From assembly GCA_009694865.1 (NCBI GenBank), contig SICD01000004.1, positions 1 through 44,895 of the forward strand: a stretch of 44,895 nucleotides of DNA. The letters are read 5' to 3'. The number at the start of each line of letters is the position of its first letter. The stretch's first letter is position 1. The notes under the pieces were generated by a model, which worked only from the letters and a program-made list of their open reading frames with translations, had not been told where the DNA came from and did not search any database. Made by a program: the position numbers and the translations under genes. The stretch comes from Candidatus Magasanikiibacteriota bacterium. GTDB lineage: Bacteria; Patescibacteriota; Patescibacteriia; Magasanikbacterales; GWA2-37-8. This document shows positions 1,530-36,985 of the stretch, in pieces.

Positions 1530-2687
1530 TTATACCATATTTCTTAAAGTAAGACCAATCGCCACTGCCATGCGTGGCCCAATTGAGCGCAACAACGGTT
1601 TGAGACGTTCTTGATAGACTACCCGACCCCACGGGTCGCCGATATAACATTTAATTTTAAATTTCTCGGCAATGGCATCGGTTAAGTAGGGCAAATGAGC
1701 CGCTCCCCCCGTAAACACCACCTTCTCGGGACGTTTTTGTTCATTACCGCTTTGGCGAAAATACAAATCAAAACTAAATTCAATTTCTTTGGCAATCGGT
1801 TCAATAATACTATCAAATAAATCAAAAAACTTCTCCCGCGACACCCCTATTTTTCCGCCCGAAAGAAAAAAACTATCAAACAAGTCGTGCTTTATTTGCT
1901 CCACAACCGTATCATCTACCCCCAAAACACGCTTTAAAATAGCGTTAATCCGCGTACCCCCCATTTCAATACTATGATGCGTAATAGGCACTGCCCGGTC
2001 GATAATAAAAAAATTGGTGCGCTCAGCGCCAATATCCACCAGCATGGTTACCGCCATATCTCGCCCAATAAGGGAGCGGGACAGCGCCATCGACTCGGGT
2101 TCCAACGAATCAAGCTTAAGGCCGGCCGCTTGAAAAATTTTGGTATAATACACTACCAAAGAACGTGGTACCGCGTTTACCAAAACGCGCTGACTTTTGT
2201 CTCCCGCGAGCGTGGGCAATATTTGGTAATCGAGGGCGGTTTCTTCCAAACTATACGGCAACAACTTTTTAATTTCCGCTTTTAAAATTTTATCAAACTC
2301 CTGCTTTTTAACTAAGGGAAGTGTGACAATAGCGTGGAACACCCCTGACACCGGCAAACTAACCACCGCGATTTTAGAAATGGTCTTCGCGGCTTGGCAC
2401 ACTTCCTTAATCATGGCGGCATAACGGTCAATCTTATCATCATCAATTTGTTCAGGCGTAGGCGGAGTGGAAGATTCAGAGGATACCATCTGGCCCGCCG
2501 CCGCTCGGCGGAGCTCATCGATTGATTTTTCTTGAACCGCCAACAGATGGTGCACATCCTGCGCTTCCGAGGTAAATCCGTAGGTAAACAAAACCGGACG
2601 GTTTTTCTCCCGCCTTAATTCCACCAGCTTAACACCGCCGGCCCCAAGGTCGACACCCAGATATGATTTTGGTTTGCCAAATAACAT
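1530..2687 (-). CDS. pilM: type IV pilus assembly protein PilM (actin-like ATPase)
   Basis: A 385-residue protein of the PilM/FtsA actin-like fold. The phosphate-1 loop YLGVDLGAGGVKLVEL is at residues 8-23, a second nucleotide-binding strand is in TMLVDIGAERTNFFIID, and the adenosine motif is VVFTGGAAHLPYL. PilM is a cytoplasmic ATPase that links the pilus platform (PilN/PilO, not present in this window) to the inner membrane. An upstream ATG would add 26 residues, but the ATG at 2687 fits better: the protein then begins MLFGKPKSYLGVDLG, as PilM does. An extended -10 box lies only 7 bases upstream, which implies a leaderless or nearly leaderless mRNA. It heads a leftward run with the receiver, membrane protein and pilin. 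Confidence 0.88.
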   Translation of the reverse strand: MLFGKPKSYLGVDLGAGGVKLVELRREKNRPVLFTYGFTSEAQDVHHLLAVQEKSIDELRRAAAGQMVSSESSTPPTPEQIDDDKIDRYAAMIKEVCQAAKTISKIAVVSLPVSGVFHAIVTLPLVKKQEFDKILKAEIKKLLPYSLEETALDYQILPTLAGDKSQRVLVNAVPRSLVVYYTKIFQAAGLKLDSLEPESMALSRSLIGRDMAVTMLVDIGAERTNFFIIDRAVPITHHSIEMGGTRINAILKRVLGVDDTVVEQIKHDLFDSFFLSGGKIGVSREKFFDLFDSIIEPIAKEIEFSFDLYFRQSGNEQKRPEKVVFTGGAAHLPYLTDAIAEKFKIKCYIGDPWGRVVYQERLKPLLRSIGPRMAVAIGLTLRNMV

Positions 2688-2694
2688 ATACACC

Positions 2695-2703
2695 ATTATA
2701 GCA
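2695..2703 (-). promoter_or_regulatory. extended -10 promoter of pilM
   Basis: On the minus strand TGCTATAAT gives a TGn-TATAAT extended -10 (hexamer 2695-2700). The ATG at 2687 is about where transcription should begin, so the pilM message is likely leaderless. Confidence 0.6.
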
Positions 2704-2879
2704 AGAAACAAGGTAAAGTTACACTGGTACTGTTGATAAGTATCAAAAAATAAGATAGAATGCAAAGGCCAAAGGCCTAATATCTAATGACTAATAAAAT
2801 ACCCAATACTAAATGCCGAAATTTGACATTGGAAATTTTATTAGAAATTAGGATTTAGAACTTAGACATTAAAAACAGT

Positions 2880-28960: not shown

Positions 28961-30235
28961 CTATCCAATTTTAGCTGTGGGCATGGGTGGCGTCGACGCG
29001 TCCACGGCAATAAGCTGACGGTCGCCGCCGTGAGGAGTGCTACCAATAAGTGGGATGCTGACGTAGAAAGTGGTGCCTTTATTTTCTTCCGATTGAAACC
29101 AAATTTTGGCATTGGATGCTTCCACAATCATTTTAGAAATGTATAAACCAATGCCCGATCCTTCTGTAACGGCGTGAATAGCATTTTCGGTGCGGAAAAA
29201 CTTTTCAAAAATGCGCGGCTGGACATCTTTAGCTATGCCGATACCATCATCTTTCACGCTAATCACATAGTCTTTAGACTGACCCTTAAAAAGAGTTACT
29301 ACTACCGCACACTTGCCTTCAGTCGAATAACGAAGAGCGTTGGTAAGAAGATTGTGAACAACCTGACGCATAAGTACCCCATCGAGCGGAATAAGCGGAA
29401 CTTTTTCTGGCGGCTGATTGAATATAATAGTACAATTACGAGCGCGCGCCAATGGTTCAATTTCCTTAATAATATCATTTATAAAAGGTATTAATTCAAG
29501 GGGTTTTGGCTCAATTTTAAGCCGGCCTGATTCCAAACGCGACACGTTAAGAAATTCATTAACAATCTGGATCATGCGATGACTGCCTTTATACACTTCT
29601 TGCAAAAATGATTTTTGTTCATCGGTAATTGGTCCGGTGTCACCCGAAAGCAACATTTCAATATACCAATTGATGGCGGTCAACGGGGTCCTCAGCTGGT
29701 GCGAAGCCAGTGATACGAACTCAGTTTTAGCTTCATCGATTTCTTTCTCACGCGTAATATCCCGAAATGTTACCACCGCGCCGATAATTTTTTGCTTCAA
29801 TAGCACTGGGGCGGCGGTAACCGCCGCTGGAAAACGGGTTTTGGTATCAGACCGCACAAAATAATAGGTGGTGGTCGTGGCCGAAGTAGAAATAACTTTT
29901 TGACCGGAGGACGTGGCCAGATGTATTGGACGTCTCTCTGGAGAAAGTGGCGCCCCGTTTGATTCCACCATCGGAATAGCATCGACGACATATTTTCCCA
30001 CTACTTCCGCGAGCGGTAAACCAAGCAATTCTTCGGCCGCCCGGTTCATAAGCATGATTTTGCCCACATTATCAGTCACAATCAAACCATCGCCAATACT
30101 TGCCAAAAAAACTTTATCAAGTGCTTGTTCTTCGGCCAAGCGGCGACTCTGGCGCGCCACCCCAAAATTGAAACCAATAAGCGCCCCGGCAACGGCGACG
30201 CTTATTATTAAAAATAAAAAATAAAATAACCCCAT
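28961..30235 (-). CDS. PAS-containing sensor histidine kinase
   Basis: A 424-residue membrane kinase. One N-terminal helix (residues 3-24) anchors it with almost nothing outside. A PAS domain (about 42-160) follows: VFLASIGDGLIVTDNVGKIM to VVTFRDITREKE. The phospho-acceptor is H179 in SLASHQLRTPLTAINW. The ATP-binding domain shows the N box VVHNLLTNALRYS (292-304), G1 DDGIGIA (329-335), the F box IFEKFF and G2 GSGIGLYISK (359-368). It probably senses an internal signal through PAS. Its gene ends the pilin gene run, 9 bases after the last pilin stop, which suggests it monitors or controls the pilus. Confidence 0.94.
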   Translation of the reverse strand: MGLFYFLFLIISVAVAGALIGFNFGVARQSRRLAEEQALDKVFLASIGDGLIVTDNVGKIMLMNRAAEELLGLPLAEVVGKYVVDAIPMVESNGAPLSPERRPIHLATSSGQKVISTSATTTTYYFVRSDTKTRFPAAVTAAPVLLKQKIIGAVVTFRDITREKEIDEAKTEFVSLASHQLRTPLTAINWYIEMLLSGDTGPITDEQKSFLQEVYKGSHRMIQIVNEFLNVSRLESGRLKIEPKPLELIPFINDIIKEIEPLARARNCTIIFNQPPEKVPLIPLDGVLMRQVVHNLLTNALRYSTEGKCAVVVTLFKGQSKDYVISVKDDGIGIAKDVQPRIFEKFFRTENAIHAVTEGSGIGLYISKMIVEASNAKIWFQSEENKGTTFYVSIPLIGSTPHGGDRQLIAVDASTPPMPTAKIG

Positions 30236-30243
30236 AAATCTTT

Positions 30244-30690
30244 CTAGCGGGTCACACTAATTACAGCGCCTTGTTCAGCGTTGGGAGCACTTACTGTGAC
30301 GCGATTATTGGCTGTTTTTACAATTCTATAACACACCCCATTCGCGTTACATCCACCCCCTGGATCGGTCGGCATAGCCGTCAAATATTTTTCACTAGCT
30401 GTCAAAACGCTCAAGTCGATTAGCCCGGCGCAATTGCCGCCGGTTTTACAAATTTCGGTTACAACATTAGTAATGCCCGGTGGAAGAGCGCCGTTAGAGT
30501 CAATCGCGTATTGATACACCGCATCAATAATTGTCTTAACATCCACCCGCCGCGTAGCGTTCCGCGTATCGCCCAATTGCTTGGTGGGATTAATGGCAAT
30601 AATAATGATACTGGCTAAAATAGAAATAGCCGCCACCACGAGCAAAATTTCAATTAAGGTAAACCCATGTTTATGTTCGTTGCTCATCAT
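30244..30690 (-). CDS. type IV prepilin (copy 2 of a tandem pair)
   Basis: A 148-residue pilin. The leader MMSNEHKHG is followed by FTLIEILLVVAAISILASII with glutamate at mature position 5. The C-terminal domain has paired cysteines (ICKTGGNCAG; GGCNANGVCYRIV) and ends NAEQGAVISVTR. It is about half identical to the gene upstream at 30700, with the same ending, so the two arose by duplication. It is likely a structural or minor pilin. It lies 9 bases after the first copy. Confidence 0.92.
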   Translation of the reverse strand: MMSNEHKHGFTLIEILLVVAAISILASIIIIAINPTKQLGDTRNATRRVDVKTIIDAVYQYAIDSNGALPPGITNVVTEICKTGGNCAGLIDLSVLTASEKYLTAMPTDPGGGCNANGVCYRIVKTANNRVTVSAPNAEQGAVISVTR

Positions 30691-30699
30691 ACAAAAACA

Positions 30700-31200
30700 C
30701 TAGCGAGTTACGCTGATTACAGCTCCTTGTTCTGCTCCTGGGGCGCAAACTGTGATGCGTCCGTTGACTGATTTAGAAATTCTATAACACACCCCATTGG
30801 CATTACAGGCGGGAACGGTTTGATTGGGATCTTTGGGGAAGGCTGTCAAATATTTCTCAGCTAAAATTAAAGCGGAAATATCAACCACACCAGCCGCGCA
30901 GGGGGCGGTTTTACAAATTTCACTAGCGGCGAGCGCGCCCGAACAAACCCCAACCGGAATTGGACTTGCGACCGTATCTGGCAATTTGCCGCTGTTATCA
31001 ATTACATACTGATACACCGCGTCCAAAATCGTACCCACATCTACCCGGCGCTGGGCATTGCGAGTATCGGCCAATTGTTTACCGGGGTTAATAGCCACGA
31101 TTACTATACCGGCTAAAATTGCAATGGCCGCGACGACCAAAAGAATTTCGAGTAAAGTAAAACCGCCTGGCGTCTTGATGTGCTGATTATTTCTTCGCAT
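30700..31200 (-). CDS. type IV prepilin (copy 1 of a tandem pair)
   Basis: A 166-residue pilin with a leader ending TPGG, then FTLLEILLVVAAIAILAGIV. Cysteines occur in VCSGALAASEICKTAPC and VPACNANGVCYRI, and the end is GAEQGAVISVTR, as in the copy downstream. Two in-frame starts exist. The ATG at 31218 adds MISLNH, which is coded by the leader repeat. The ATG at 31200 (MRRNNQHIK) gives a normal-length prepilin leader and is preferred. The leader carries duplicated hairpin modules shared with secA and an extended -10 promoter, so the pilin pair may be transcribed strongly on its own. Confidence 0.92.
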   Translation of the reverse strand: MRRNNQHIKTPGGFTLLEILLVVAAIAILAGIVIVAINPGKQLADTRNAQRRVDVGTILDAVYQYVIDNSGKLPDTVASPIPVGVCSGALAASEICKTAPCAAGVVDISALILAEKYLTAFPKDPNQTVPACNANGVCYRISKSVNGRITVCAPGAEQGAVISVTR

Positions 31201-31284
31201 ATGATTTAACGAAATCATGCCTGATTCAACAGAATCATGTCGCGTAGTGTCCTTTGAAACGCGACCTGTCCTTTGAAGCGCGGC
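31201..31284 (-). promoter_or_regulatory. structured 5' leader of the pilin pair (doubled secA-type modules)
   Basis: On the minus strand the order is: CGCG-bounded hairpins with TTCAAAGGAC loops (two copies), then the palindromes ATGATTCTGTTGAATCAG and ATGATTTCGTTAAATCAT, then the pilin ATG. The second palindrome differs from the secA copy at one base. Both the hairpin and the palindrome are duplicated here and single at secA. Confidence 0.7.
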
Positions 31285-31366: not shown

Positions 31367-31759
31367 CTAAAAATCCGGTACTTCCTGCCAGCTAATTATA
31401 TGAATCTGGGGATTAATCGCGTCTAAGATAATTTTTTCTTTGCGCGTAATCGTGCCAACTGTACCTAAGATAGTAATCTGGCGGTTCTCACCAGCAAACT
31501 TTATAACGGTATACGTACAAGTACCATCTCCCAAAATAATATTCGCTTGCCCGAAAAAATCGGTATTTCCGCGAACCTGTTCCAAGGCCTCTTCGGCGCA
31601 GGCATCGGACAACCATCGAGCCTGTGTCGATTGCTCCATTGCTAAACTTGTTTTACTGTTCCCCACTCCAAACCACAGCAGGGCCGCCCCAATACTAAAA
31701 CCCACCGCCCCAATTAAGAGAACACTTAGCAAAGTTATAAAACCGCGATTATTGATCAT
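31367..31759 (-). CDS. prepilin-like protein, PilX-like
   Basis: A 130-residue protein with a short leader MINNRG and a hydrophobic helix (FITLLSVLLIGAVGFSIGAAL). Unlike true pilins it lacks the fifth-position glutamate (F-I-T-L-L). The body has SDACAEEALEQVR and a following C-T-Y-T motif, the pattern of PilX/GspK-like minor components whose helix is followed by an S-x-A-x-E-x-A motif. It may cap or prime the pilus tip. It lies 7 bases after the next prepilin gene upstream. Confidence 0.75.
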   Translation of the reverse strand: MINNRGFITLLSVLLIGAVGFSIGAALLWFGVGNSKTSLAMEQSTQARWLSDACAEEALEQVRGNTDFFGQANIILGDGTCTYTVIKFAGENRQITILGTVGTITRKEKIILDAINPQIHIISWQEVPDF

Positions 31760-31765
31760 ACAGAA

Positions 31766-32293
31766 TTATCGAAGGCTCGCCGAACCAATAAAATCTTTCT
31801 TGTAATTAAATTCATTGCGCCCAATAGGGTTAATATGAGTGATGGTAAAAGACAACTGTACCGTGCCGGATGTTTGCGGACGTGATAAATTCTTAAAATT
31901 AACTCCGCTCACTATTACTCGATTATTGGTCAATGCTACACTGGGAGCGTTACCCTCTTGCAATATTAAAGCGCCATTCTGCAGATTCACCACCGTCGGG
32001 CTCTTGGCGCCATCGAGGACAACAAAGTTAAGTGTTGAGCCGTTCCCTGGCGCCGCTGGAATGTTAATTTGAGTAGCATTGCGCATAAGTTGTGAAACGA
32101 TCGCCAAAACCTGTTGCCCCTGACCATCAACCTCGGCGATCACTTGACTGCGTACGCGCGTGCGGAGTAAAAAAGATAAAAAAACCGCCACCGTAGTCAA
32201 CATTATCGCGGCGCATGAAATATATAGCAGAAGTTCAATTAAGGTAAAACCCTTTCTGCCTAAGCTTGGTTCATTTATTTTGACATTTAACAT
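31766..32293 (-). CDS. prepilin-like protein, PilW/GspJ-like
   Basis: A 175-residue minor pilin. The leader MLNVKINEPSLGRKG leads to FTLIELLLYISCAAIMLTTV with the E5 residue. The body has QVLAIVSQLMRNATQINIPA and ends DFIGSASLR. The long beta-rich domain after the helix, with QGQQVLAIVSQLMRNA, resembles PilW/GspJ. It is one of four minor components encoded in a row between pilC and the pilin pair. Confidence 0.82.
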   Translation of the reverse strand: MLNVKINEPSLGRKGFTLIELLLYISCAAIMLTTVAVFLSFLLRTRVRSQVIAEVDGQGQQVLAIVSQLMRNATQINIPAAPGNGSTLNFVVLDGAKSPTVVNLQNGALILQEGNAPSVALTNNRVIVSGVNFKNLSRPQTSGTVQLSFTITHINPIGRNEFNYKKDFIGSASLR

Positions 32294-32311: not shown

Positions 32312-32803
32312 TTACGGACCTGGCGGAGGTGGCGGCACTACCACTCGACGCCAATTTGTGAGATAGGTGGTAAGATTAATTTGCCCGCTCCGACGGATGT
32401 TTTCTTGCCACGCAACCGTGGCAACTACTTTTTTTCGGTTCAAATCAAGACTCGTTATGGTAAGCTGGCGAGCATAAACACCAACAGTGTCGGAAACGCC
32501 GGAAAAAACCCACTGATTGTTGCTAACAGCCAAACCGTGGACGCCATCAACTAGGAGGGCATAATCCGCGTCACGCATATTGCGAACAGCGACCATCGAT
32601 TCATCGGCCAAAGCAACAGCCGCGCCGCGCTGACCAGCAATAACCACCGCTTCTTCTCCATATAACAATGTACCCGCCAATCCGGTGGTAATAAGCGCAA
32701 AAAGAGCCGAGGCTAAAATAACCTCAACAATAGTAAAACCGCTCGCTTGGTTTTTAGTAAGCCAGCGTGCCTTTGTTCGTAAGGGTAATTGTGTGAACAT
32801 CAT
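32312..32803 (-). CDS. prepilin-like protein, PilV/GspI-like
   Basis: A 163-residue minor pilin. The cleavage site is SGFTIVEVILASALFALITT with E at mature position 5 or 6, followed by a helix and a beta-rich domain containing DESMVAVRNMRDADYALLVD. The end is VVVPPPPPGP. The long leader (about 22 residues) is unusual, and a shorter in-frame start at the second Met may be used. The first 50 bases overlap the 3' end of the gene upstream (32754-33218), so translation is probably coupled. Confidence 0.8.
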   Translation of the reverse strand: MMFTQLPLRTKARWLTKNQASGFTIVEVILASALFALITTGLAGTLLYGEEAVVIAGQRGAAVALADESMVAVRNMRDADYALLVDGVHGLAVSNNQWVFSGVSDTVGVYARQLTITSLDLNRKKVVATVAWQENIRRSGQINLTTYLTNWRRVVVPPPPPGP

Positions 32804-33218
32804 TATTAGAGGCGGTAAGAGTAAGCGCGCCGACGGGGGTCGGTTCGCCCAGGACTTTAGAGAAAACTATTTCCGACCAACCAGCGAAAATGATACCGGT
32901 AGAAAAAGTAAATACTTCATCGGCCGCCGTAATTCGACCGGCATAATTAGACCCTTGAAACAACGTCACAGTGCCGGGCGCCACCGCTACTCCCCAACTA
33001 GTATCGCCATCGTTGGCTTGAGCCAGAACTTGCGCGCGCCGCAAACTTTGCACAATGGAAGCTGTTGCGAGATCTAAATCATTCTTAACATACACCACCT
33101 GATAGAGCGGTAAAAAAATCCCCGCTAAAATTGCGATCAACGAAATCGCCAAAAACATTTCGATAAGCGTAAAACCGGGTGATTGTTTGGATTTGGAAAT
33201 TGATTGCGAGTACGACAT
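32754..33218 (-). CDS. prepilin-like protein, GspH/FimT-like
   Basis: A 154-residue minor pilin. The leader MSYSQSISKSKQSPG leads to FTLIEMFLAISLIAILAGIF with E5. The domain after it contains TASIVQSLRRAQVLAQANDG and TLTNKG, as in GspH/FimT-type initiators of pilus assembly. It lies 16 bases after pilC's stop and is the first of the minor pilins in the operon. Confidence 0.83.
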   Translation of the reverse strand: MSYSQSISKSKQSPGFTLIEMFLAISLIAILAGIFLPLYQVVYVKNDLDLATASIVQSLRRAQVLAQANDGDTSWGVAVAPGTVTLFQGSNYAGRITAADEVFTFSTGIIFAGWSEIVFSKVLGEPTPVGALTLTASNNDVHTITLTNKGTLAY

Positions 33219-33234
33219 ACGACAAACAAATCAA

Positions 33235-34710
33235 TTACTCCCCCACCACATTCACGTACTTCGCTGACACCCACCCCAGCGCGGCATCGGGCAACACAAT
33301 TTGGTACCAATCACCCTCGCGGGCTTGAAAAGAATAGGCGGATCCGACCTGGGCTTTACCAATCACCTCGCCTTTAGTCGACGGCTCACGACGAATTTTG
33401 AGATAGCCAATTTCGGTGGGCAAAATAATAAGTTTGTTGGACTGCGAAGAAACGGGGGTCGAAGTGGCGACAACAACAGTTGCTGGAAAAAGCGTGGTTG
33501 CCGCGGGCGCAGAAACAACTGGTATAATTGATGTTTCTTCCGTTGCCGGCTGCGGAGCAGACACATCACTCGACTGACTCAAGCCGCCAATTAAACTATA
33601 AATTGGCAAAATGACCGAAAGCGCTACCGCGACCACTCCGAGCCACACCGTTACTAGCAGAATCGGCTCCAAAATCACCGTAAGATTTTTGGTAGTCAAC
33701 TCCGTTTTAGCCTCGTAGACAGCGCCAATATTTAATAAAGTTCCAGGAAGTTTGCCGGATTGTTCTCCAGCGCCAATGAGCTGTTGCATTGCCACGGGAA
33801 ACAATTTATGAGCGCCACGGTACAAACTAAAACTTTTACGAAATGAATTGCCTTCTTCCACGCGATCGTGGAGGTGCGTGTACAATCTTCGAAAACTACG
33901 AAAAACTGTCGCATCACGAATCGCGATCAGAGCGGCCGTAACGGGCAAGCCGGCTTCAAGCAAAGTTCCTAAAATATAGCCAAACCGACCAAGCTCCACT
34001 TCCTGAAGCAAACGGTTCACCCCGGGAGTATGAAATAAAATTGCTTGACCGATAAACTTAGTAGCGGGGAAAATAAATAAAAAATACAACCCCAGTGCGA
34101 TCACGAGCATCACGAACGGAATCACGATTGACCCCCATTTTCCCAAAAAAATTCCCACCGCCATCAGCACCCGCGTAATAAATGGAAGCGGTATGTTAAG
34201 ACCGGTAAAAATACTCGTGAGTCGCGGCAAAATAAACCAAGCGATACCTAAACCCACCACCAGCGCCAAACCAAGCACAAACAAGGGGTACATCATGGCC
34301 GAGCGCATTTTGGAACGAAAACTTTTTTCTTTGCGCTGTTGTTCCACAATCACGTTAAGATTATGAGACAAAGTACCAGCTTCCTCGCCAATTTTTATAA
34401 GCGCGGTAATATGGAGTGGCAACAATCCGCTTTTCTCAAACGCCCGCCAAATTTGCGAACCCGCCTCAATTTCACCTTGCACTTCAAACACAACTTGCTG
34501 TAAAGGCTTGGATTGAATGCTCGTTTTTATTGCCTCCAGTGCCGTTAACACATCCATGCCAGCCGACACGAGCATGGCAAAATTTTCCACAAAATTATCT
34601 TTTTCTTTGCCCGAACCAATCAACGAAAGACGACGAAAAAACCGAGATTGTGAGACAGACACGGCAGGTCGCGACAATTTGGTTTCGCTATTTTGAACTT
34701 TGGATTTCAT
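33235..34710 (-). CDS. pilC: type IV pilus platform protein PilC/GspF with C-terminal SH3-like domain
   Basis: A 491-residue inner-membrane platform protein. Two T2SS-F domains (about 45-170 and 250-370) each have the typical FAMLVSAGMDVLTALEAIK-like and FGYILGTLLEAGLPVTAALI start. They are joined by helices LGLALVVGLGIAWFILPRL and similar, with a last helix at about 360-385. An Ala/Pro/Thr-rich linker follows, then a C-terminal domain YLKIRREPSTKGEVIGKAQV to GWVSAKYVNVV, which is a bacterial SH3 fold. The start at 34710 is chosen over the ATG at 34725, which lies in the repeat. It lies next to pilB. Confidence 0.92.
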   Translation of the reverse strand: MKSKVQNSETKLSRPAVSVSQSRFFRRLSLIGSGKEKDNFVENFAMLVSAGMDVLTALEAIKTSIQSKPLQQVVFEVQGEIEAGSQIWRAFEKSGLLPLHITALIKIGEEAGTLSHNLNVIVEQQRKEKSFRSKMRSAMMYPLFVLGLALVVGLGIAWFILPRLTSIFTGLNIPLPFITRVLMAVGIFLGKWGSIVIPFVMLVIALGLYFLFIFPATKFIGQAILFHTPGVNRLLQEVELGRFGYILGTLLEAGLPVTAALIAIRDATVFRSFRRLYTHLHDRVEEGNSFRKSFSLYRGAHKLFPVAMQQLIGAGEQSGKLPGTLLNIGAVYEAKTELTTKNLTVILEPILLVTVWLGVVAVALSVILPIYSLIGGLSQSSDVSAPQPATEETSIIPVVSAPAATTLFPATVVVATSTPVSSQSNKLIILPTEIGYLKIRREPSTKGEVIGKAQVGSAYSFQAREGDWYQIVLPDAALGWVSAKYVNVVGE

Positions 34711-34722
34711 ACAAAAAGTTGT

Positions 34723-34803
34723 CATCCTGAGCGGAGCGAAGGATCTTCTTTGCTCCCGTTCGCTTGAGTAATAGGAAGATTCTTCGTTTCACTCAGAATG
34801 ACA
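34723..34803. repeat. complete TGTCAT...ATGACA palindromic element
   Basis: TGTCATCCTGAGCGGAGCGA opens and GTTTCACTCAGAATGACA closes it, with arms GAAGGATCTTC and GAAGATTCTTC inside. This intergenic copy between pilB and pilC shows the whole unit (about 80 bases). Confidence 0.9.
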
Positions 34804-34815
34804 ATTGTGTAATTC

Positions 34816-36483
34816 TTATGACGTGTGCCTTATTTCGGGCGGAGCGGCCACGCGCGCTAACTCTTCAATCGTGGTCAAACCATTTTTTATCTTCTCCACC
34901 CCATCCTCAAACATTGAGCGCGCCCCTTGCTTTTGCGCTAAATCCCAAATTTGTTTAGTGGACGGATGTTGCAAAAGCAAATCTTTCATCTCGGGCGTCA
35001 TGGGAATAAATTCAAACACCGCCGTGCGACCCTTAAAACCGGTTTGGCCGCAATTGGCGCACCCTTTGCCGGCGTACAAAGTGAGTGACTTTTTAGAAAA
35101 ATAGTGGGACATGCCAGGAACTTTTTTTTCAATATCAGAGGGCGATAATGTGACAGCGTGACGGCAGTTCTCACAAATTTTACGCACCAGTCGCTGGGCG
35201 ATGACAACTTCGAGAGTTGACGCCAAGAGAAACGGCTCAATACCCATATCGAGCAAGCGGGGCAAAGCGGTGGCGGCATCATTAGCGTGAAAAGTAGACA
35301 AGAGCAAATGTCCGGTCAAGGCCGCATTAACGGCAATTTCAGCCGTTTCACCATCACGAATTTCACCAACGAGGATAATATCTGGGTCTTGCCGCGCGAT
35401 TGACCGCAACCCCTTGGCAAAGGTAAGATTCGTCTGGGTGTTAATTTGAATTTGATTAATCCCGGGTAGATGATACTCCACCGGATCTTCAATGGTGGTA
35501 ATATTTACCTCGGGACGATTAAGAGTTTTGAGGAGCGCGTAGAGGGTGGTTGTTTTCCCCGAACCGGTCGGGCCGGTCACCAAAATCATCCCAAAAGGCT
35601 TTTTAGCCGCTTTAAAAAATAATTCCTGATCCATTGCCGAAAGACCCACATCCCCTAGAGCAAACCCTTGAATATACTGCGATAAAACGCGCAACACAAT
35701 TTTTTCGCCACTCAAAGTCGGAAGAATTGACACGCGAAAATCCAACACTTGCTTGTTCTTATCCGTATATCTAATGGCGCCGTCCTGAGCGGAAAAATGG
35801 TCATCAATTCTAAGGTGCGCTTGCACTTTTACCCGGTTAAGCACATTATCATAATGTTCGGTGGGAATCCGGCCCGCCTCGTGAAGGACACCGTCGACGC
35901 GGAACCGCACTTCCACATCTTTATCCTGCGGTTCAAAATGAATATCCGAACAGCGAAACGCCACCGCGTCTTCAATAATCGCGTCAATCAATTCCGGCGC
36001 CACTCGTTTGCTTACCTTGATGATGTCGGTAAAACGCGTGGATAATTTTTTTCGATAATGAATTAAAGTGGCTTCAATATCTTCCGGCAAGGCATAAGCC
36101 ACGCTCACTTTGCTAGATCCAAAAATCTTTTTGAGCGCGCCACCCAACCCTTCCGCCACGGGATTATCGGTCGCCACGGTGATCCCCTTTTTTGTTTCAT
36201 TAAAAAAAACCACGCGGAATTGAACGGCAATTTCTTCCGGAATTTTGGCAGTTTGCTCGGCTGAAGGCTGGGCGCTATTTAAATCGGCATAGGTGGCCTT
36301 AAAAGATTCCGCCATCGCCTGCCCCACCAAATCTTTGGTAACCAGCCCCTGTGCCAAGAAAAAATCTACAACACCAACATGATTTTTCTCTTTGGCCGCT
36401 TCGGCCGCTTTCACGTCATCCTCGGTAACATAATTGCCTTTAAGAAGAAGGTCTTTGATTATATCGTCAGATATACTTAACAT
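34816..36483 (-). CDS. pilB: type IV pilus extension ATPase PilB/GspE
   Basis: A 555-residue hexameric ATPase that drives pilin polymerisation. The N-terminal GspE-N domain (about 1-150) is followed by the motor: Walker A GPTGSGKT (304-311), Asp box IEDPVEYHLPGINQIQIN (331-348), Walker B region QDPDIILVGEIRDGETAE and His box GHLLLSTFHANDA. The tetracysteine zinc site has C437, C440, C475 and C478. The ATG at 36483 has no SD. It lies first but one in the operon; the gap to pilC holds the complete palindromic element. A separate retraction ATPase (PilT) is not seen in the window. Confidence 0.95.
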   Translation of the reverse strand: MLSISDDIIKDLLLKGNYVTEDDVKAAEAAKEKNHVGVVDFFLAQGLVTKDLVGQAMAESFKATYADLNSAQPSAEQTAKIPEEIAVQFRVVFFNETKKGITVATDNPVAEGLGGALKKIFGSSKVSVAYALPEDIEATLIHYRKKLSTRFTDIIKVSKRVAPELIDAIIEDAVAFRCSDIHFEPQDKDVEVRFRVDGVLHEAGRIPTEHYDNVLNRVKVQAHLRIDDHFSAQDGAIRYTDKNKQVLDFRVSILPTLSGEKIVLRVLSQYIQGFALGDVGLSAMDQELFFKAAKKPFGMILVTGPTGSGKTTTLYALLKTLNRPEVNITTIEDPVEYHLPGINQIQINTQTNLTFAKGLRSIARQDPDIILVGEIRDGETAEIAVNAALTGHLLLSTFHANDAATALPRLLDMGIEPFLLASTLEVVIAQRLVRKICENCRHAVTLSPSDIEKKVPGMSHYFSKKSLTLYAGKGCANCGQTGFKGRTAVFEFIPMTPEMKDLLLQHPSTKQIWDLAQKQGARSMFEDGVEKIKNGLTTIEELARVAAPPEIRHTS

Positions 36484-36607: not shown

Positions 36608-36985
36608 CTATTTAATTGCTTCTTGCACGTGTTGCACAAGCTCGCTTAAAGACGTATTTGATTTTACGAAATATCCCTTCGCTCCCAAATCGCGGGCCTT
36701 TTTTTCATCTTCTTCCTGCCCCAAATTGGAGGTAACAATTACGTTTGCTTTCTTGCCTTTTTTCTTCAAAGTCTCCAAAATTTCAAACCCATTCATCTTG
36801 GGCAAGATTAAATCTAGCAGAATCAAATCGAAATCTTCGTCAGTTGCAATTTTTAACGCCTCCTCGCCATCATAGGCCACCTTTACGTCAAACCCGGAAT
36901 GATGCAGTTTTAATTCCAACGCACGGGCCACCGGCCGCTCATCCTCCACAATTAAAATTTTTTTTCCTCCCGCCGCTTTTGGCAT
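36608..36985 (-). CDS. single-domain response regulator
   Basis: A 125-residue receiver. The acidic pocket is in ILIVEDE (E14-D15), the phospho-acceptor is D58 in LILLDLILPKMNG, and the lysine is in GYFVKS. It is the first gene of the pilus operon. It shares the layout of the receivers at 1045 and 28518. A possible role is to link a kinase signal to pilus assembly by protein contact. The promoter is at 37046; there is no SD. Confidence 0.9.
   Translation of the reverse strand: MPKAAGGKKILIVEDERPVARALELKLHHSGFDVKVAYDGEEALKIATDEDFDLILLDLILPKMNGFEILETLKKKGKKANVIVTSNLGQEEDEKKARDLGAKGYFVKSNTSLSELVQHVQEAIK

Follow-up and report, generated by a model that had tools for sequence, protein, structure and literature searches.

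The PilC/GspF-family platform protein encoded in the window (the whole 44,895-nucleotide stretch of Candidatus Magasanikiibacteriota bacterium contig SICD01000004.1 that was analyzed) ends in a bacterial SH3 domain, which is joined to the last membrane helix by a linker that is predicted to be disordered. It is the combination of PilC and SH3 that appears new, the T2SSF and SH3_3 halves both being known families, and no report of a PilC-SH3 fusion was found in the open-access literature. We give a probability of about 50% to the reading that the SH3 tail tethers the pilus platform to peptidoglycan or a wall polymer from outside the membrane, of which the outside location, the wall ligand and the anchoring are what we infer. 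Little is known of what holds type IV pilus machines in single-membrane cells without a secretin, and pili are main host-attachment tools of these episymbionts. A candidate wall tether on PilC itself would offer a direct, deletable handle on platform anchoring.

Layout of the PilC protein and its operon

The whole protein matched T2SSF (PF00482) in two stretches (E 4.5e-41, 140.2 bits versus a cut-off of 25.2), and hydropathy and AlphaFold2 concur on the positions of its three membrane helices (Table 1), whose orientation is presumptive. The PilC gene adjoins genes for a PilB ATPase and pilins, as expected of the PilC/GspF platform family, and these neighbors, the two T2SSF repeats and the three membrane helices are all shared with the PilC, PilG, GspF and ComGB platforms, from which the protein differs in its extra linker and SH3 domain. 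The assignment was made at the family level only, since the scores were below the NCBIfam equivalog cut-offs for HofC (203.5 versus 401) and GspF (179.4 versus 424), and the curated cut-offs of the equivalogs for Thermus or Myxococcus PilC and for ComGB were likewise not reached. The first 58-80 profile positions of the HofC and PilC models were unmatched by this PilC, whereas the ComGB model was matched from its start.

Table 1. Features of the SH3-tailed PilC, its operon and the distant pilM gene in the window
Feature	Positions	Strand	Basis or remark
PilM, without SH3 domain, about 30 kb from PilC	1530..2765	-	PF11104
PAS histidine kinase, operon end	28961..30235	-	similar place in many relatives
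Pilin-like protein	30244..30690	-	TIGR02532, E 2.6e-07
Pilin-like protein	30700..31218	-	prepilin N-terminal motif
Small membrane protein, perhaps PilX-like	31367..31759	-	position and N-terminal helix only; without library match
Pilin-like protein	31766..32293	-	prepilin N-terminal motif
Pilin-like protein	32312..32803	-	prepilin N-terminal motif
Pilin-like protein	32754..33218	-	prepilin N-terminal motif
PilC/GspF-family type IV pilus platform protein with C-terminal SH3 domain	33235..34725	-	496 aa
Bacterial SH3 domain (SH3_3)	33238..33438	-	residues 430-496; PF08239; AlphaFold2; fold matches
Pro/Thr/Ser/Ala linker, predicted disordered	33439..33579	-	residues about 383-429; pLDDT 40-52; composition; faster protein change
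Third membrane helix	33595..33675	-	residues 351-377; hydropathy; AlphaFold2 helix up to residue 382
Second T2SSF domain	33604..33972	-	PF00482
First T2SSF (cytoplasmic) domain	34225..34593	-	PF00482; residues 45-167
PilB-type assembly ATPase, upstream of PilC, same operon	34816..36483	-	PF00437 (E 4.7e-122) and MshEN
Response regulator, head of operon	36608..36985	-	sequence motif; similar place in many relatives

The original prediction had described a tail, composed of a Pro/Thr/Ala linker and an SH3-like domain, that follows the last membrane helix. This arrangement held: by hydropathy and AlphaFold2 a three-helix platform is followed by the linker (76% P/T/S/A/V), for which the model of the full protein predicts disorder, and then by the SH3 domain. 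The span that had been given for the tail, 33235-33460, placed the domain correctly but included a few linker residues.

The sole type IV pilus PilC found in both genomes of the genus is the tailed one, with no ordinary PilC in a protein search of the own or the sister genome. PilN and PilO were found neither in the own genome nor in G001, and a PilT-sized ATPase was not found among the four PF00437 genes of the own genome, three of which are PilB-size (532-580 aa) and one of Tad type; as the own assembly is 94.7% complete, these absences of PilN, PilO, PilT and ordinary PilC are provisional. In the family as a whole, Pfam matches to PilN (17/22 genomes) and PilO (8/22) adjoin ordinary PilC, not operons of the tailed type. 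Two more PilB-type ATPases are present in the own genome (L162:7142-8884 and L163:1625-3223), with no adjoining PilC. The own genome (G000) also has a Tad pilus cluster on contig C30 (L102:146-5446), which comprises TadE/G-like and CpaB-like proteins, TadA, TadB, TadC and a prepilin peptidase. The other T2SSF pair of the genome was rejected as a second type IV pilus because it is of TadB/TadC type and lies in this cluster.

Fold and selection of the SH3 domain

SH3_3 (PF08239) was matched at residues 441-491 (E 5.9e-10, 39.6 bits versus a gathering cut-off of 27), and at E 1.5e-11 when the 67-residue C-terminal piece was searched alone. In the full-length AlphaFold2 model, which was built with 31 sequences, the PilC core was of high confidence and seven strands were placed at residues 430-496, with pLDDT 96-97 over most of them. 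When modeled alone the domain had a pLDDT of 90.8 and TM-scores of 0.80-0.87 versus solved bacterial SH3 domains, and the SH3 fold that had been proposed is thus well borne out by family match, model and structural comparison. A chance match or an assembly artifact was ruled out because about twenty contigs from different assemblies carry the fusion. No SH3_3 match other than the PilC tail was found in the own genome.

Among solved structures the closest in sequence is the SH3 part of the autolytic lysozyme/endolysin 4KRT (E 0.0014), and this phiSM101 endolysin was also the best fold match of the isolated domain, followed by the model of YrvJ, a wall amidase. The SH3_3 ends of these two proteins are alike to that of PilC in fold and sequence family, but they are attached to a hydrolase, whereas here a single copy is borne by a membrane platform with no enzyme. 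That the best solved matches are wall hydrolases argues for a tether, as does the listing of SH3_3 among wall-attachment domains in a review (PMC5817068). The same review suggests that SH3_3 domains may bind proteins as well (PMC5817068), which argues against a tether and would suit a protein-protein module that acts on an outer part of the pilus (minor pilins, the pilus base or a partner's proline-rich linker) and steers or gates assembly. The six pilin-like or small membrane genes downstream of PilC would be in keeping with such a module, which we nevertheless consider somewhat unlikely given that the nearest solved folds are wall enzymes and that the presence of the tail shifts repeatedly within one kind of operon (see below).

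The SH3 domain is under purifying selection and the linker is much less constrained. Between this species and the other species of the genus, pN/pS was lowest in the PilC core (0.16), slightly higher in SH3 (0.22) and highest in the linker (0.53), values to be read as ratios only because synonymous sites are near saturation between the two. Across distant tailed PilCs the SH3 positions W-Y-x-I, G-W and Y are invariant, and the tail is still kept in diverged members whose SH3 parts are 23-48% identical; both the selection and this retention are in favor of a tether. Across the tailed family the linker ranges from 26 to 79 residues and varies in sequence as well as length, as would suit a spacer.

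Distribution of the tail among PilC proteins

The distribution was compiled from protein searches in relatives, from scanned species genomes and from 380 genomes drawn evenly from the phylum. The tailed PilC was present in 9/380 genomes of the even draw (G000, G036, G078, G100, G192, G327, G374, G409 and G418), two of which (G409 and G327) have weaker SH3 ends, and in 8/25 genomes of the family, a count that includes one (G022) with the gene split over two contig ends. The carriers are Magasanikbacteria (including the sister species JAHFHV), Moranbacteria UBA12116, two Doudnabacteria, two Nealsonbacteria and UBA2193, with G036, G078, G418, G100 and two other records as further carriers. Among family genomes with this PilC paralog the tail is present in eight of nine, the exception being G012. 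The reading frame of the tailed PilC is interrupted by stops in G020. In one Magasanikbacteria MAG the PilC-SH3 gene (L046:7080-8645) has in-frame stops and is either a pseudogene or an assembly error.

The contrast that had been drawn with PilCs that end at the last helix was supported by the survey of relatives. Ordinary PilCs, which are about 24-32% identical, end just after that helix, and many sister PilCs (of Staskawicz-, Lipton-, Kerfeld-, Falkow-, Adler- and Uhrbacteria, among others) stop within a few residues of it. The tail was rejected as a general PilC feature of the phylum based on its presence in 9/380 genomes and in none of the ordinary PilCs seen. No separate SH3 gene was seen adjoining tailless PilCs in loci L048 and L050-L069. 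Of the phylum-survey ORFs with an SH3 domain and a length like that of PilC, those that were read encode one PilM and otherwise exported or membrane proteins, among them PEGA-type ones; none is a PilC. For other phyla, none of 532 plasmid records with relatives covered 80% of the query, a weak negative that extends to plasmids only.

Gain and loss of the tail

In a tree of the PilC core only, the tailed paralog and its sisters split from ordinary PilC with branch support of 100/100. Within this group the tailed proteins are scattered among tailless ones, with 10 changes on the best tree and 10-11 in bootstraps, of which at least three are forced by well supported branches; each change may be a gain or a loss. 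A single clade of tailed PilCs was rejected (AU test, p 0.0003), and a tree of the SH3 domains alone had too few columns to resolve the origin of the tail. Tailed and tailless genes share one operon type, in which PilB, PilC and several pilin-like genes are often preceded by a response regulator and followed by a PAS histidine kinase, as judged from gene labels that in the relatives derive from simple sequence motifs. The PilN sequence motif was seen in none of the tailed and tailless loci of this operon type that were examined. The tail is a rare add-on with several gains or losses in related pili, and because it changes repeatedly within one operon type, pili that have it can be compared with natural counterparts that lack it.

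One PilC (L077:1420-2706 (-)), sister to the tailed protein of L041, has a charged linker-like tail of ~50 residues and no SH3, which looks like a loss of the domain. This protein, the patchy distribution with about ten gains or losses, and the commonness of SH3 ends elsewhere among the proteins of the phylum are what would be expected if the tail were a mobile helix-linker-SH3 end, of the kind borne by Patescibacteria envelope proteins, that had accreted to PilC under loose constraint and with little effect on the pilus. We judge this distinctly unlikely in view of the purifying selection on the SH3 domain, the retention of the tail in all but one of the family genomes with the paralog and the SH3 end that PilM, another pilus part, bears in G418.

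A possible tether between platform and wall

The charge pattern of PilC is consistent with the canonical three-helix topology, and based on that topology for GspF/PilC together with the charge distribution the tail would lie outside the membrane. A cytoplasmic tail that regulates PilB or another cytoplasmic partner would call for a different arrangement, and a non-canonical topology is indicated for the PilC relative BfpE by a title cited in PMC4527729, a point that also counts against the tether reading. We regard a cytoplasmic tail as highly improbable, as the charged T2SSF domains and the tail are on opposite faces under the canonical topology, and in other proteins of the phylum the Ser/Thr/Pro linkers that precede SH3 come after a membrane helix. 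From the outside, binding of the tail to the wall or to pilus parts would be plausible. In the tether reading, the platform would have gained a flexible linker (26-79 residues) and one SH3_3 on the membrane's outer face; the linker would cross the space beyond the membrane up to the wall, and the SH3 domain would grip the wall (peptidoglycan or an attached polymer) and so fix the platform beneath it. The tail would then take part of the job that PilN/PilO and wall-binding partners have in other type IV pili.

Supporting a tether is that searches of the two genomes of the genus turned up no PilN or PilO, which in the family adjoin ordinary PilC. Against it, many sister PilCs that occupy the same operon type, again with no PilN motif seen nearby, are tailless. 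The tail is therefore not essential and, since the tailless sisters seem to be without adjoining PilN/PilO too, would be an aid rather than a requirement. The search of this assembly for a PilT-sized ATPase also came up empty, so it is not obvious that the platform has to withstand retraction force.

Further support for a tether comes from an independent PilM-helix-SH3 fusion where PilC is tailless. In G418, and in no other of the 380 genomes, PilM is fused to SH3_3 inside a type IV pilus operon (L117:368-1963 (+), also L124:8768-10363), in the order PilM (E 6e-34), a PilN-like 'YDINLLP' motif, one membrane helix, a Ser/Thr/Pro linker and SH3_3 (E 4.8e-12). The PilC of this operon is ordinary and tailless, and G418 also has a PilC-SH3 elsewhere in its genome. 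As PilC and PilM both have the same kind of outer SH3 end, the finding suggests a common use for these ends on two inner-membrane pilus parts. A more general proposal, which we hold to be tentative and rather unlikely, is that Patescibacteria have a simplified wall-tethered pilus, arisen several times, in which an SH3 domain on whatever inner-membrane part is available (PilC here, PilM in a relative) takes the place of the PilN/PilO collar in linking platform to wall.

In diderm type IV pilus machines the peptidoglycan-binding parts are the LysM domains of TsaP and FimV and the AMIN domain of PilQ. The SH3 tail would resemble these in joining the pilus machine to the wall, but they are other domains on other subunits and not on PilC. 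Nanosynbacter lyticus, of the same superphylum of episymbionts, also has more than one pilin-based system, T4P-1 and T4P-2, and needs PilC2 for normal host binding (PMC12206443). Genes for PilM, PilN and PilO are present in both TM7x systems (PMC12206443), whereas none adjoins the operon described here and its PilC has SH3.

Other SH3-ended proteins of the phylum

SH3 ends are common on other proteins of the phylum and the helix-linker-SH3 arrangement recurs among them, a matching layout that also favors a tether. Twelve exported Patescibacteria proteins with an SH3_3 end (L106-L108, L110-L115, L118, L119 and L123) look PEGA-repeat-like, the repeats being confirmed by Pfam in L107 and L123 only. 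Five short proteins (L093, L094, L096, L098 and L099) consist of a cytoplasmic part, one membrane helix, a Pro/Thr linker and an SH3_3 end, and four of them share a 'KPxxEGIN(A/T)P'-like motif ahead of the helix.
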